From positions 1 through 64,000 of the forward strand of contig NZ_JOEZ01000027.1 in NCBI RefSeq assembly GCF_000721175.1: DNA of 64,000 nt, in the 5' to 3' direction. Source of the stretch: Streptomyces anulatus (GTDB lineage: Bacteria; Actinomycetota; Actinomycetes; Streptomycetales; Streptomycetaceae). Under the pieces are notes generated by a model, which was not told the DNA's origin, did no database searches, and saw only the letters and a program-made list of their open reading frames with translations. The position numbers and the translations under genes were made by a program. This document shows, one piece after another, positions 1,856-35,640 of the stretch. Every line of letters begins with the position of its first letter. Positions within the stretch are counted from its first letter, which is position 1.

Positions 1856-2035
1856 TGCCGGCGGCTCGCGGCCTCAGGAGGCCCATGCCGCCTGCCGGGC
1901 CCGTGGAATATTGTCTCGCGCCCGGTCAACGCGTTCTCTAAGGTCATGGGCATGCACCTCCCGGTGCGAAGGCGGCGGCTCCTTCCTTTCCTGAAATGTG
2001 CCGCAGCCACTGGTGAACTCGGGAGGCGCGAGCGC

Positions 2036-2176
2036 CGGGGTGCCCGGTGCGCAGGCGACGGATACTTCTGGATCTGAGGGTTGCGGGTTCGAGTCCCGTC
2101 CGGCTCCGGCCGGTAGCTCAATCGGACAGAGCTTCAGACTGTTCTCCGTCGCCGACTCCTGATCTCGGGCACCCCG
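2036..2176 (+). ncRNA. yrlA: YrlA-type Y RNA with circularly permuted tRNA-like domain
   Basis: The ends form a perfect 11-bp stem (2036-2046 with 2166-2176) and a second 9-bp stem (2054-2062 with 2145-2153). Inside sits a tRNA mimic in permuted order: anticodon-stem-like pairing 2073-2077 with 2134-2138; T arm 2083-2099 with loop TTCGAGT; acceptor-like stem 2100-2104 with 2109-2113 closed by a UCCG tetraloop (cUNCGg type); D arm 2116-2119 with 2129-2132 and a GG-containing loop. Bacterial YrlA RNAs are known to carry a tRNA-like module and to bind the Ro60 orthologue Rsr; the rsr gene starts 45 bases downstream. The terminal helix would be the Rsr-binding part. Exact transcript ends are inferred from base pairing. 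Confidence 0.9.
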
Positions 2177-2193: not shown

Positions 2194-2212
2194 CCCCCAG
2201 GAATTCGGGGGA
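2194..2212 (+). promoter_or_regulatory. Hairpin just upstream of rsr start
   Basis: ccccc and ggggg arms flank a short AT-containing loop directly before aattcttctcatg. It could end the Y RNA transcript or mask the G-rich ribosome-binding site of rsr, linking RNA and protein levels. Role is inferred. Confidence 0.4.
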
Positions 2213-2221
2213 ATTCTTCTC

Positions 2222-3814
2222 ATGTCTCGCTTCAATTTCCGTACGCACAGGTCCCGTTCCGCCGGCTTTGAGCAGCCGGTCTCGCCCGTCACGACGACCG
2301 GCGCGGTCGCGCCCAACCACCAGGGCGGCAGCGGACACGTGCGCGACGCCCGCTCCGAGCTCTTCCTGCTCGCCGTCGCCAACTTCGTGGCCCAGGACAC
2401 CTACTACGAGGGCGGAGACCGGCGCGACGACCGGTTCGCCACGCTCGTGCGCCGCCTCGCCGTGGAGGACCCCACCTGGACCGCGGGGCTGCTCCACTGG
2501 CTGCGCCGCGACGGGCAGATGCGGACCGCCTCGCTGGTCGGCGGCGCGGAGTACGTGCGGGCGCGGCTGGCCGCGGGCTGCACCGAGGGGCCCACGAACC
2601 GGCAGGTCATCGACTCCGTTCTGCTGCGGGCCGACGAGCCAGGCGAGCTGCTGGGCTACTGGACCTCCCGCTACGGGCGCGCCCTGCCCCAGCCCGTGAA
2701 GCGGGGCATCGCCGACGCCGTACGCCGCCTCTACACCGGCCGTGCCCTGCTGAAGTACGACACCGCGTCCAAGGGCTACCGCTTCGGCGACGTGCTCAAC
2801 CTGGTGCACGCCGCGCCCGACCCCGCCAAGCCCTGGCAGGGCGAGCTCTTCCGGTACGCGCTGGACCGCAGGCACCGGCCGGAGAGCGCCGTGCCGCCCG
2901 CCGCCGACCGCACGCTGGGCGCCCACCGGGAGCTGATGGAGCTGCCGGTGGCCGAGCGTCGCCCCGTCGTCACCGGCCCCGGCGGCGCGGAGCGGCTGGC
3001 CGAGGCCGGGATGACCTGGGAGTCGCTGGCGGGATGGCTGCAGGGCCCGATGGACGCGGCGGCGTGGGAGGCGGTGATTCCGTCGATGGGGACGATGGCG
3101 CTCGTCCGGAACCTCCGGAACTTCGACGAGGCCGGGGTACGGGACGAGGTCGCGGCGAGCGCCGCCGCCCGGATCAGCGACCCGGAAGCCGTCGCCGCTT
3201 CGCGGCAGTTCCCCTTCCGCTATCTCGCCGCGTACCGGCACGCGCCGTCGCTGCGCTGGGCCCACCCGCTGGAGCAGGCCCTTGGGCACTCGCTGGGCCA
3301 GGTTCCCGCGCTGCCCGGCCGCACCCTGGTCCTGGTCGACCGCTCCGGTTCGATGGCCGCGCCACTCTCCGAGCGCTCCCGGCTGAACCGGGCCGACGCC
3401 GCGGCCGTCTTCGGCGCGGCGCTGGCTCTGCGCGCCGCCGACGCGGACCTGGTGCAGTTCGGCACGACCAGCGCGCCGGTGACCTTCCGCGCGGGCGAGT
3501 CCGTGCTCCGGGTCCTGGACCGCTTCGGCAACCTGGGAGGCACGAACACGGCGGAGGCGGTGCGGCGGCACTACCGGGGCCACGACCGGGTCCTCATCGT
3601 CACCGACGAGCAGGCCGCGTACACGCGCCGTGGCGACGCGACCCGGAGCGTTCCGGACACGGTGCCCGTCTACACCTGGAATCTGGCCGGATACCGGCTC
3701 GGCCACGCCCCGTCCGGCGAGGGAAACCGCCACACGTTCGGGGGTCTTTCCGACGCGGCGTTCCGCATGGTTCCGCTGCTGGAGGCGGGAGGAAGCGCTG
3801 ACTGGCCGTGGTGA
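2222..3814 (+). CDS. rsr: Ro60 orthologue Rsr (TROVE and vWA domains)
   Basis: 530 aa. Residues ~20-360 form the TROVE module of alpha-helical repeats that builds the RNA-binding ring of Ro60 proteins; the remaining C-terminal part is a von Willebrand factor A domain with the MIDAS motif DRSGS at about residue 373 and later T and D ligands (GGTN, VTDEQ). Bacterial Rsr binds Y RNAs, tethers them to nucleases such as PNPase and assists rRNA or RNA turnover under stress. The adjacent upstream YrlA RNA makes the partnership near certain. ATG 2222 is the first start in frame and is preceded by a G-rich stretch. The protein is cytoplasmic, with no signal peptide or membrane segment. Confidence 0.93.
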   Translation: MSRFNFRTHRSRSAGFEQPVSPVTTTGAVAPNHQGGSGHVRDARSELFLLAVANFVAQDTYYEGGDRRDDRFATLVRRLAVEDPTWTAGLLHWLRRDGQMRTASLVGGAEYVRARLAAGCTEGPTNRQVIDSVLLRADEPGELLGYWTSRYGRALPQPVKRGIADAVRRLYTGRALLKYDTASKGYRFGDVLNLVHAAPDPAKPWQGELFRYALDRRHRPESAVPPAADRTLGAHRELMELPVAERRPVVTGPGGAERLAEAGMTWESLAGWLQGPMDAAAWEAVIPSMGTMALVRNLRNFDEAGVRDEVAASAAARISDPEAVAASRQFPFRYLAAYRHAPSLRWAHPLEQALGHSLGQVPALPGRTLVLVDRSGSMAAPLSERSRLNRADAAAVFGAALALRAADADLVQFGTTSAPVTFRAGESVLRVLDRFGNLGGTNTAEAVRRHYRGHDRVLIVTDEQAAYTRRGDATRSVPDTVPVYTWNLAGYRLGHAPSGEGNRHTFGGLSDAAFRMVPLLEAGGSADWPW

Positions 3815-4245: not shown

Positions 4246-5481
4246 CTACAGGGACTTGGCGGCGGGCTTCACCATGCCCCGCACGGTGCGCGACTTCACG
4301 AACTCGCCCATCGCGGTCATCTCCCACTCGCCGGTGAACTGCTTGATGAGCTTGGCCATCATCACGCCGGTCTGCGGCTCGGCGCCGGTGAGGTCGAAGC
4401 GGACCAGTTCCTCGCCGGACGCGTCGTCGATCAGCCGGCAGTAGGCCTTGGCGACCTCGTTGAACTTCTGGCCGGTGAACGAGTTCACCGTGAAGACCAG
4501 GCCCGTCGCCTCGGTGGGGATCCGGCCCAGGTCCACGACGATCACCTCGTCGTCGCCCGCGCCGTCACCGGTGAGATTGTCACCGGAGTGCTTGATGGCC
4601 CCGTTCAGGATGGTCAGCTTGCCGAAGTAGCAGCTGTCCAGGTGGTTGCGGCTGGGGCCGTAGGCGATCACCGACGCGTCCAGGTCGATGTCCTTGCCGC
4701 GGAACGCGGGCTCCCAGCCCAGGCCCATCCTGACCCGCGAGAGCAGCGGGGCGCCGCCCTTGACGAGGGACACGGTCTGGTTCTTCTGGAGGCTGACCCG
4801 GCCCTTGTCCAGATTGATCTTCCCAGAGCCGGCAGGCGGGGCGGGGGCCGCCGGGGGAGCGGGCGGGGCGGCCGGAGCGGGCGGGGCGATCCGCGGGTCG
4901 ACGGGGACGGCGGCCGGTGCCGCGACCGGCGGTGCCACCGGGGCGGGGGCGACCGGCGCCGGGGCGACCGGGGCCGCGGGCTCCTCGACCGAGACGCCGA
5001 AGTCCGTGGCGATCCCGGCCAGCCCGTCGGCATAGCCCTGGCCGACCGCGCGGGCCTTCCAGGCGCCGTTGCGCCGGTAGACCTCGATGACCACGAGCGC
5101 CGTCTCGGCGCCCAGCTGCGGCGGGGTGAAGGTGGCGAGCGCACCGCCGTCGTCCGCGTTGCGCACGGTGGCGGTGGGCTCGATGCCCTGGAAGGTCTGG
5201 CCGGCGGCGTCCGGGCTCGCGGTGACGACGATCTTCTCGATGCCAGGCGGGACGGCCGCGGTGTCCACCACGATCGCGTCGGGTGCGGAGCCCCCGCCGG
5301 AGCGGTAGGTCACACCGGGGCCCGAGGGCTGGTTGTAGAAGATGAAGTCGTCGTCGGAGCGCACCTTGCCGTCGGCGGTGAGCAGCAGGCCCGAGACGTC
5401 GAGCCGCACCGGGGCGGCGACGTCCACCGCCACGCGGGCGGCGGAGAGCGGGATGTTCGAGCCGGGGGTCATAGCGGTCAT
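4246..5481 (-). CDS. TerD-family protein with two TerD domains
   Basis: 411 aa. Residues ~5-180 form a TerD domain (PGSNIPLSAARVAVDV, DFIFYNQP, VVIEVYRR and a DFGVSVEE end). A Pro/Ala-rich linker (~185-235) leads to a second TerD domain (~240-405, GLGWEPAF, DLDASVIAYG, GDNLTGDGAGDDE). TerD domains bind Ca2+ through acidic loops and belong to tellurite/stress-response systems linked to metal sensing, phage resistance and, in Streptomyces, differentiation. The protein is cytoplasmic. Two ATGs nine bases apart (5481, 5472) are possible starts; neither has a strong ribosome-binding site. No terB/C genes lie nearby. Confidence 0.9.
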   Translation of the reverse strand: MTAMTPGSNIPLSAARVAVDVAAPVRLDVSGLLLTADGKVRSDDDFIFYNQPSGPGVTYRSGGGSAPDAIVVDTAAVPPGIEKIVVTASPDAAGQTFQGIEPTATVRNADDGGALATFTPPQLGAETALVVIEVYRRNGAWKARAVGQGYADGLAGIATDFGVSVEEPAAPVAPAPVAPAPVAPPVAAPAAVPVDPRIAPPAPAAPPAPPAAPAPPAGSGKINLDKGRVSLQKNQTVSLVKGGAPLLSRVRMGLGWEPAFRGKDIDLDASVIAYGPSRNHLDSCYFGKLTILNGAIKHSGDNLTGDGAGDDEVIVVDLGRIPTEATGLVFTVNSFTGQKFNEVAKAYCRLIDDASGEELVRFDLTGAEPQTGVMMAKLIKQFTGEWEMTAMGEFVKSRTVRGMVKPAAKSL

Positions 5482-35454: not shown

Positions 35455-35640
35455 ACCGGCGACGAGAGTCTCCTGGCTTCCGGATCCGCAGTTCCCCCGG
35501 CCTTCCAGCCCGCGTGTCGCGGGCCGTGACATCCGGTGTGGGGGAGTGCTCCCCGGTGACAGTGGCGGGACCGCGCCGGATTCGCACCGGCTTCCTCTGC
35601 TGTCGCCGTAAATGGCTCCGGCAGTCCACCACGCCCTGCG
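35455..35640 (-). promoter_or_regulatory. Cobalamin (adenosylcobalamin) riboswitch
   Basis: On the minus strand the aptamer landmarks are present: gccggtgcgaatccggcgcg followed by gtcccgccactgt (35600-35557), and the B12 box gaagccaggagac (35481-35469). Paired regions flank them, including ggggagcactcccc. It lies upstream of cobD and should lower cob operon expression when the cofactor is plentiful. The expression platform probably acts on ribosome access in the 35329-35449 segment. Confidence 0.93.

Follow-up and report, generated by a model that had tools for sequence, protein, structure and literature searches.

The window, as we call the whole 64,000-nucleotide stretch of Streptomyces anulatus DNA that was analysed, probably contains near its start an Rsr ribonucleoprotein operon, in which the lower stems of two Y RNAs would bind Rsr and the tRNA-like domain of the longer one would recruit an effector that recognizes the core of tRNA, PNPase being the likeliest candidate. 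At the level of sequence, comparison with other streptomycetes demonstrates the structure of the long RNA (through covariation), its tRNA-like tertiary pairing, its linkage to and co-occurrence with rsr, and the lack of a fixed tRNA identity among its orthologues. The features concerned are the following.

1939-1944 (+): TAAGGT, a putative -10-like box before the first Y RNA
1953-2031 (+): second, short Y RNA (Y2), without a tRNA domain; model R2, 78.1 bits
2036-2176 (+): YrlA-type Y RNA (Y3) with a permuted tRNA-like domain; fold, Rfam match, covariation, model R1
2036-2046/2166-2176 (+): P1, the outer stem, 11 bp; double changes in 7 of 11 pairs
2054-2062/2145-2153 (+): P2, the second stem, 9 bp; double changes in 5 of 9 pairs, 86.7% of alignment cells paired
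2073-2077 (tRNA 39-43)/2134-2138 (tRNA 27-31) (+): anticodon-like stem, 5 bp; double changes in all 5 pairs
2083-2099 (+): T arm GCGGG-UUCGAGU-CCCGU, 5-bp stem and 7-nt loop; 99% of cells paired, nearly invariant, no double changes
2100-2113 (+): acceptor-like hairpin, stem 2100-2104/2109-2113 (5 bp), sealed by UCCG; double changes in 5 of 7 pairs
2116-2132 (+): D arm GCUC-AAUCGGACA-GAGC, 4-bp stem and 9-nt loop with GG; 100% of cells paired, double changes in 2 of 4 pairs
2201-2216 (+): GAATTCGGGGGAATTC, hairpin-forming, holding the likely rsr ribosome-binding site (G run in the loop)
2222-3814 (+): rsr, a TROVE/vWA protein of 530 aa, the Ro60 orthologue; PF05731, 43.8 bits against a cut-off of 23

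In the scenario that we favor, the short and the YrlA-type Y RNAs would be transcribed ahead of, and probably together with, rsr, and the conserved lower stem of each would be the part bound by Rsr. The upper domain of the long RNA would adopt the L-shaped fold of tRNA. The Y stem would enter it within the anticodon loop, which is thereby opened, and a tetraloop would cap the acceptor end and so preclude CCA-tailing; the sealed acceptor together with the open anticodon should exclude both charging and decoding. Such a domain could recruit an effector specific for the tRNA core, not for any one tRNA. In Deinococcus, Rsr and PNPase are held together by a Y RNA that acts as a tether (PMC8058203, PMC7790460), the complex being known as RYPER (PMC8394870); by analogy, PNPase is the putative partner here, and the product of the operon would be an Rsr-Y RNA-nuclease machine for structured RNA.

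The top Rfam match of the long RNA is RF02553 (YrlA), which aligns over positions 1-114 of its 114 with 60.3 bits (E 2.7e-13 when 511 bases are searched and 1.0e-12 when the whole genome is), and the permuted order of T arm, acceptor-like hairpin and D arm was found as well, as was a Ro60 orthologue alongside. The earlier note, made from the letters alone, had called the RNA YrlA and placed rsr directly after it. The identification stands, given the full-length match, the adjacent gene at 2222, which is indeed TROVE/Rsr (PF05731), and the fact that 76 of the 77 genomes bearing a Y RNA also have rsr. The covariance-model search that the note had proposed is significant over the full model, but the score stays below the curated gathering score of 69 bits, so that the RNA goes unreported in a default search, much as the note had anticipated; at the curated cut-off, there is likewise no YrlA match in 14 related loci, 7 of which yield 9 matches of 30.6-57.6 bits when E values up to 0.05 are admitted. 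Our own model R1, trained on 28 relatives with the window and its nearest relative, L031, left out, assigns 150.5 bits (E 2.1e-31) to 2036-2176 on the forward strand, the next-best place in the window, apart from the reverse strand of the RNA itself, scoring 13.2 bits. A gene on the opposite strand at the same place was rejected (16.1 bits), and partial weak matches to R1 or RF02553, covering model positions 24-122 or 35-116, were judged false, one of them after inspection and the others from the model range.

The window RNA shares with RF02553 the outer stem, the anticodon-like stem enclosing the T arm, the acceptor-like hairpin and the D arm, in this order, the proximity to rsr, and the permutation seen in the bacterial Y RNA structure 6CU1, described as a circularly permuted version of the tRNA arrangement (PMC11472068). 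The permuted fold of YrlA has already been published, and the core of the present finding is known. The window RNA differs from the family in its long extra P1, which lies outside the Rfam match, in its UCCG-sealed acceptor, in its location after a short Y RNA and ahead of rsr, and in that relatives may carry a Leu-like class II or an initiator-like domain instead. YrlA is reported to be a substrate of DusA and TruB (PMC8394870), and the window RNA presents positions resembling modification targets, namely, U54-U55-C56-G57-A58 and a U in the D loop AAUCGGACA; the suggestion that the RNA might serve as a substrate of tRNA-modifying enzymes thus agrees with that report as well as with the conserved U54-U55-C56 and D loop.

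Within the permuted domain, the tRNA halves come in reverse order, 3' before 5', and the loop of the anticodon-like stem opens into P2. All helices drawn in the earlier note (P1, P2, the T, D and anticodon-like stems, and the sealed acceptor-like stem, with the halves swapped) are present base for base; its description of the T and D arms as short has to be abandoned, given that both are of ordinary tRNA length (T, 5 bp and a 7-nt loop; D, 4 bp), and the acceptor stem alone is short, with 5 bp instead of 7, the length that it attains in some relatives. The RNA folds better than expected by chance (z -4.15, with 1 of 200 shuffled sequences as good or better). However, by nearest-neighbor energies, the optimum is a rod of -74.6 kcal/mol, whereas the cloverleaf, at -64.1, lies 10.5 kcal/mol above it; the T arm is part of the computed optimum in 37 of the 47 class-I orthologues. 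The cloverleaf is, accordingly, a predicted fold supported by covariation, not by computed energy.

The covariation was assessed on the best 80 of 537 Streptomyces rsr loci recovered by a protein search, 81 with the window. A motif parse located a YrlA-type RNA directly upstream of rsr in 63 of these loci, which yielded 54 non-redundant RNAs, and 40 of them were aligned, the omitted ones being 11 Leu-like RNAs and 3 with insertions (L032, L078, L080). In these 40 orthologues, 24 of the 41 pairs show double compensatory changes and 94.2% of the cells pair, so that the absence of compensatory changes across related streptomycetes, which the note had named as grounds for refutation, does not obtain. 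The covariation score is 0.260; shuffling gives a mean of 0.121, with none of 500 shuffles reaching the observed value, and sliding the structure gives 0.084 at most, in controls that only partly remove the relatedness among the sequences. Double changes occur in all helices except the nearly invariant T stem; the innermost pair and one central pair of P2 are often broken in this alignment. A consensus fold prediction agrees with the covarying structure.

The conservation extends to the residues that shape the tRNA core. Among the 49 class-I or initiator-like orthologues, 47 could be read at these positions (L047 and L097 were skipped), and in all 47, U54, U55, C56, A58, C61, A14 and the GG of the D loop are invariant, with U8 present in 46. 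The Levitt pair 15-48, A15 and U48 in the window, is G-C in 17 orthologues, A-U in 28, A-C in 1 and A-G in 1, the two positions thus switching together in 45 of the 47; in the real tRNAs of this genome, 40 of 42 sequences carry G-C or A-U at this pair. Mapped on the Rsr tree, the pair underwent 4 well-supported independent changes (6 over all branches), none of them contrary, which corresponds to a p of 0.125. The covariation of 15-48 and the conserved core residues are what an L-shaped tRNA core would demand.

The short Y RNA, which ends 4 bases ahead of the long one, is absent from the earlier note. Model R2, for which 30 relatives were used and the window, L031 and L032 were withheld, recognizes it with 78.1 bits and an E of 1.6e-14 (26.6 bits on the reverse strand), and the motif parse found a short Y RNA in 70 of the 81 loci. 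Its folding energy is not better than that of shuffled sequences (z -0.89), and its stem shows double changes in 4 of 18 pairs, most of the pairs being nearly invariant. The two RNAs have in common the stem motif CCCGGUGCG..GGC / CUCGGG and a [UC][AC]CUUC motif, and R2 also matches the lower stem of the long RNA (2036-2177) with 45.8 bits; the match of one model to both RNAs, with the shared lower stem and internal motif, is as expected of a common Rsr site, and we infer that this stem is the putative site. The pair is reminiscent of the Salmonella operon rsr-yrlBA-rtcBA, where YrlB is a second Y RNA alongside YrlA and rsr, but the order in the window is short Y RNA, YrlA, rsr, whereas in Salmonella the Y RNA genes come after rsr (PMC7790460).

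Rsr is a ring-shaped protein that binds RNA and is related to human Ro60. The assignment of the downstream gene to the Rsr/Ro60 proteins is carried by the TROVE match and by the similarity to TROVE proteins of the PDB (9kop and 9l5y, E 2.8e-28). In the vWA half, a DRSGS stretch aligns with DVSGS of 9kop, and the Pfam vWA match, 21.6 bits, falls below its cut-off of 27. With respect to the start of transcription, no TTGACA/TATAAT-type promoter site was found in 1780-2300; in 77 of 81 loci, the 28 nt that precede the first Y RNA contain the motif TANNNT, a count made without a shuffle control.

The Y RNAs and rsr travel together across the genus. At a cut of 58.8 bits, chosen at a gap above the partial matches after viewing the list, R1 detects a Y RNA in 77 of 150 genomes, 76 of which encode Rsr (E up to 1e-20), compared with 6 of the 73 genomes without such a match; the genome sets were read by hand from the listings, some of the species among the 150 belong to the training set of R1, and one full-length match of 56.0 bits, below the cut, lies in a genome (G147) that is included in the count in any case. 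The exception among the 77 (G149) encodes Rsr only as fragments; there, at L193 (G149:C2), a full YrlA lies alongside the fragmentary rsr. In another genome (G005), the rsr match near the Y RNA lacks the first 177 residues. Among the R1 matches of at least 100 bits, 53 of 55 sit 33-306 bases upstream of an rsr match on the same strand, the position of the RNAs on which R1 was trained. A YrlA also precedes rsr in the S. griseus strain BIG105.

The arrays in the 81 loci are YrlA-short-YrlA in 41 cases, short-YrlA in 17, including the window, YrlA-short in 11, YrlA-YrlA in 5, YrlA alone in 4 and short alone in 3, all these counts being approximate because the parse left a third copy unjoined in L070, L086 and L074 (in the latter, on account of the T loop) and mislabelled some others, for example, L047 and L060. 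The gaps between tandem Y RNAs span from a few to some tens of bases, and such small gaps point to one transcript. Several observations stand against the operon reading: the rod-shaped computed optimum, the lack of a textbook promoter, the RF02553 gathering score that is not reached, the p of 0.125 for 15-48, and the six rsr genomes without a Y RNA at the cut.

Which tRNA is imitated varies within the genus. No single tRNA emerged as the source of the window domain: of the 48 tRNA sequences from this genome to which its halves were compared, those for Lys, Asn and Arg scored almost alike, and scores of 16-18 were reached against several. By motif, the 65 third-position Y RNAs, that is, those in the place of the window RNA, include 47 of class I, 12 with a Leu-like D arm and a long variable region, 4 with a Leu-like D arm and a short one, and 2 that are initiator-like; in the other 16 of the 81 loci, none was classified, with one missed by the parse at least in L074. 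The Leu-like D arm reads GUGGCGGAAC..GACGCGC, and in the 11 of the 12 long-variable RNAs that were aligned, the long region reads, by eye, as a hairpin, such as GAGGG/CCCUC or GGGGG/CCCCC. The two features occur together in 12 of the 16 RNAs with the Leu-like arm, as they do in real tRNA classes, which fits recognition of tRNA shape rather than of an individual tRNA. A quick Rsr tree requires 8 changes for the long-variable Leu type, at least 3 of them forced by well-supported branches. The loci L049 and L050 are a case in point: their Rsr proteins are nearly the same, and the T arm and acceptor hairpin are identical, but the D arm and variable region are Leu-like in one and Arg-like in the other. 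The orthologue comparison thus establishes, as far as motifs can tell, a mimic without a constant tRNA identity, and the changing type speaks against a single synthetase as the partner.

The first-position Y RNA, which is absent from the window, exhibits a further departure. After UACUUC, 57 of 60 such RNAs carry a 5-bp stem with a 7-nt loop, all 57 with C32-U33 and A38; the loops read CUCAUAA, CUCUUAA, CUGAUAA and others, and the stem covaries (CA/UG in 25, GA/UC in 7 and CG/CG in 3 of 35 aligned). Among third-position RNAs, the same scan found such a closed anticodon arm in none of the 47 of class I and in 1 of 11 of the long-variable Leu type. Judging from these predicted arms, two modes of opening the tRNA ring exist side by side, one inside the anticodon loop and the other beside the anticodon arm.

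These variations bear on the main rival of the PNPase scenario, namely, that the Rsr-held domain is a decoy that titrates an enzyme attacking or modifying tRNAs, for instance, an anticodon nuclease, instead of recruiting PNPase. We regard this as unlikely but worth weighing: the tRNA that is imitated differs between species (Arg-, Leu-, initiator- and Glu-like), one type keeps a complete anticodon arm with its C32-U33 and A38, and a role as competitive inhibitor is named as a possibility for Salmonella YrlA in PMC7790460. The RNA in the window itself, however, has an open anticodon loop, like the class-I RNAs at large, so that it probably presents no anticodon; and the same source states that YrlA fragments were not found in Salmonella, which means that the RNA was uncut by the nuclease studied, an outcome that would also suit an inhibitor (PMC7790460).

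A broader form of the idea, which we put forward tentatively and on balance doubt, is that Rsr in Streptomyces holds a set of tRNA imitations that is maintained but keeps changing, each imitation matched to the tRNA targeted by the current attacker (a tRNA-cutting toxin or a phage-triggered anticodon nuclease) or handler. It would accommodate the generic or Arg-like class I, the swaps to Leu-like class II and initiator-like forms, the closed-anticodon type with its variable triplet, and the unlinked Glu-like copies in several genomes; if correct, it would imply that Rsr-nuclease complexes or decoys meet the attacker or handler.

The scenario in which Rsr and the tRNA-like domain together recruit a nuclease has also to be set against a far less probable one, in which the structures are mainly a 5' leader that controls the expression of rsr, for example, through binding of Rsr to its own leader. 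The Y RNAs do lie immediately upstream of rsr on the same strand, the long one 45 nt from the start of the gene, and just before the start codon, the hairpin-forming GAATTCGGGGGAATTC is found exactly or nearly so in 70 of the 81 loci (57 exact, 13 near-exact; among the 11 where it was not found, the fetched start falls inside the gene in two, L034 and L109). This hairpin may control rsr translation. A leader, however, has no need of a tRNA fold, the Salmonella Y RNA genes come after rsr, in the order rsr-yrlBA (PMC7790460), and in other genomes Y RNAs occur far from rsr. We inspected 20 further places matched by R1, hand-picked from the list, and 18 of these (L176-L192 and L194) are on another contig than rsr or several hundred kb away from it. 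A closed anticodon arm of 5 bp and 7 nt is present in 14 of the 18, and 12 have a Glu-like D arm (L179-L187, L190, L192 and L194). Hairpins of 12 to 15 bp, resembling terminators, follow 9 of the 18, and those after the other 9 do not exceed 7 bp; random stretches taken from these loci average about 6. The former 9 look like stand-alone RNA genes. In three of the unlinked RNAs (L188, L189, L191), the D arm is different (UAUGGCCGAG..) and, by eye, Ser/Leu-like. In the S. anulatus genome itself, neither R1 nor R2 found a further copy with the Rsr-site stem.

That the locus is a broken tRNA gene, or a permuted one processed into a working tRNA, is contradicted by the evidence and can be set aside: ARAGORN does call a tRNA-Thr at 2015-2108, and the halves do score 16-18 against several real tRNAs, but the acceptor stem of 5 bp is sealed, CCA end and anticodon loop are lacking, and compensatory changes are kept genus-wide. 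The ARAGORN call, tRNA-Thr(ggt), runs from the tail of the short Y RNA across the intervening gap into the long one, of which it takes in the first half, and is false, in line with the expectation of the earlier note that such an RNA would be missed or mis-called; what makes a linear cloverleaf is missing, with the acceptor end sealed by UCCG and the anticodon loop open into P2. Circularly permuted tRNA genes of algae also place the 3' half ahead of the 5' half and are processed into linear tRNAs; the window RNA has the same order of halves but has a sealed acceptor and an opening at the anticodon. Elsewhere in this genome, a weak match of 38.4 bits (G000:C16:191373-191485) was rejected, as it spans two neighboring tRNAs, covering the 3' half of the first and the 5' half of the second. 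Such tandem tRNAs that pass as weak YrlA matches call for caution in surveys and represent a possible origin of permuted mimics.

Taken alone, the window RNA is a further Streptomyces YrlA, ordinary for its class. The RNAs of its relatives, however, form a natural series: the putative Rsr site stays, and the tRNA type, the point at which the ring opens, the length of the acceptor and the very presence of the domain vary, which makes the questions of what the mimic binds and whether tRNA identity matters directly testable. Moreover, an RNA of about half of the sampled Streptomyces genomes (77 of 150) goes unseen at the Rfam cut-off in the loci tested and is partly read as tRNA by ARAGORN in the window. 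What makes the finding a variant worth following is the combination of a second Y RNA, genus-wide arrays, a tRNA type that changes and a form with a closed anticodon arm. No report of the tandem triplets (41 of 81 loci), the switches of tRNA type, the closed-anticodon type or the unlinked copies was found in the open-access literature searched, outside of which the main YrlA papers lie; Chen's survey of 2014, which reportedly covers many species, may hold some of these Streptomyces RNA types.

Other elements encountered along the way are of interest in their own right. Another contig of this genome (G000:C42:62329-62759, minus strand, the same as L204:5330-5760, minus strand) bears two tandem permuted tRNA-like units, each with a T arm, a sealed acceptor hairpin and a D arm, in a conserved stretch of about 430 nt with a terminator-like hairpin at its end and, by eye, no Rsr-site stem. 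This element matches no Rfam family at its cut-off; blastn recovers it in 35 of 61 genomes of the genus, in 31 of them with E <1e-20, and at least 10 of these 31 lack an Rsr match. It is possibly a new RNA.

Relatives of Rsr are also present in 79 phage and 29 plasmid records. In all five phage and plasmid loci that were fetched, a Y RNA-like match to R1 or R2 lies near the gene, the strongest, of 71.2 bits, on a Rhodococcus plasmid; these matches are unannotated in the three phage records, and the plasmid tables contain no RNA genes. In the Streptomyces phage Kela (L206), an annotated RNA ligase gene directly precedes the Ro-like gene, with unannotated Y RNA-like matches upstream. The window further contains, on the minus strand, a gene for a TerD-domain protein (4246-5481) and a cobalamin riboswitch (35467-35596, 74.8 bits).
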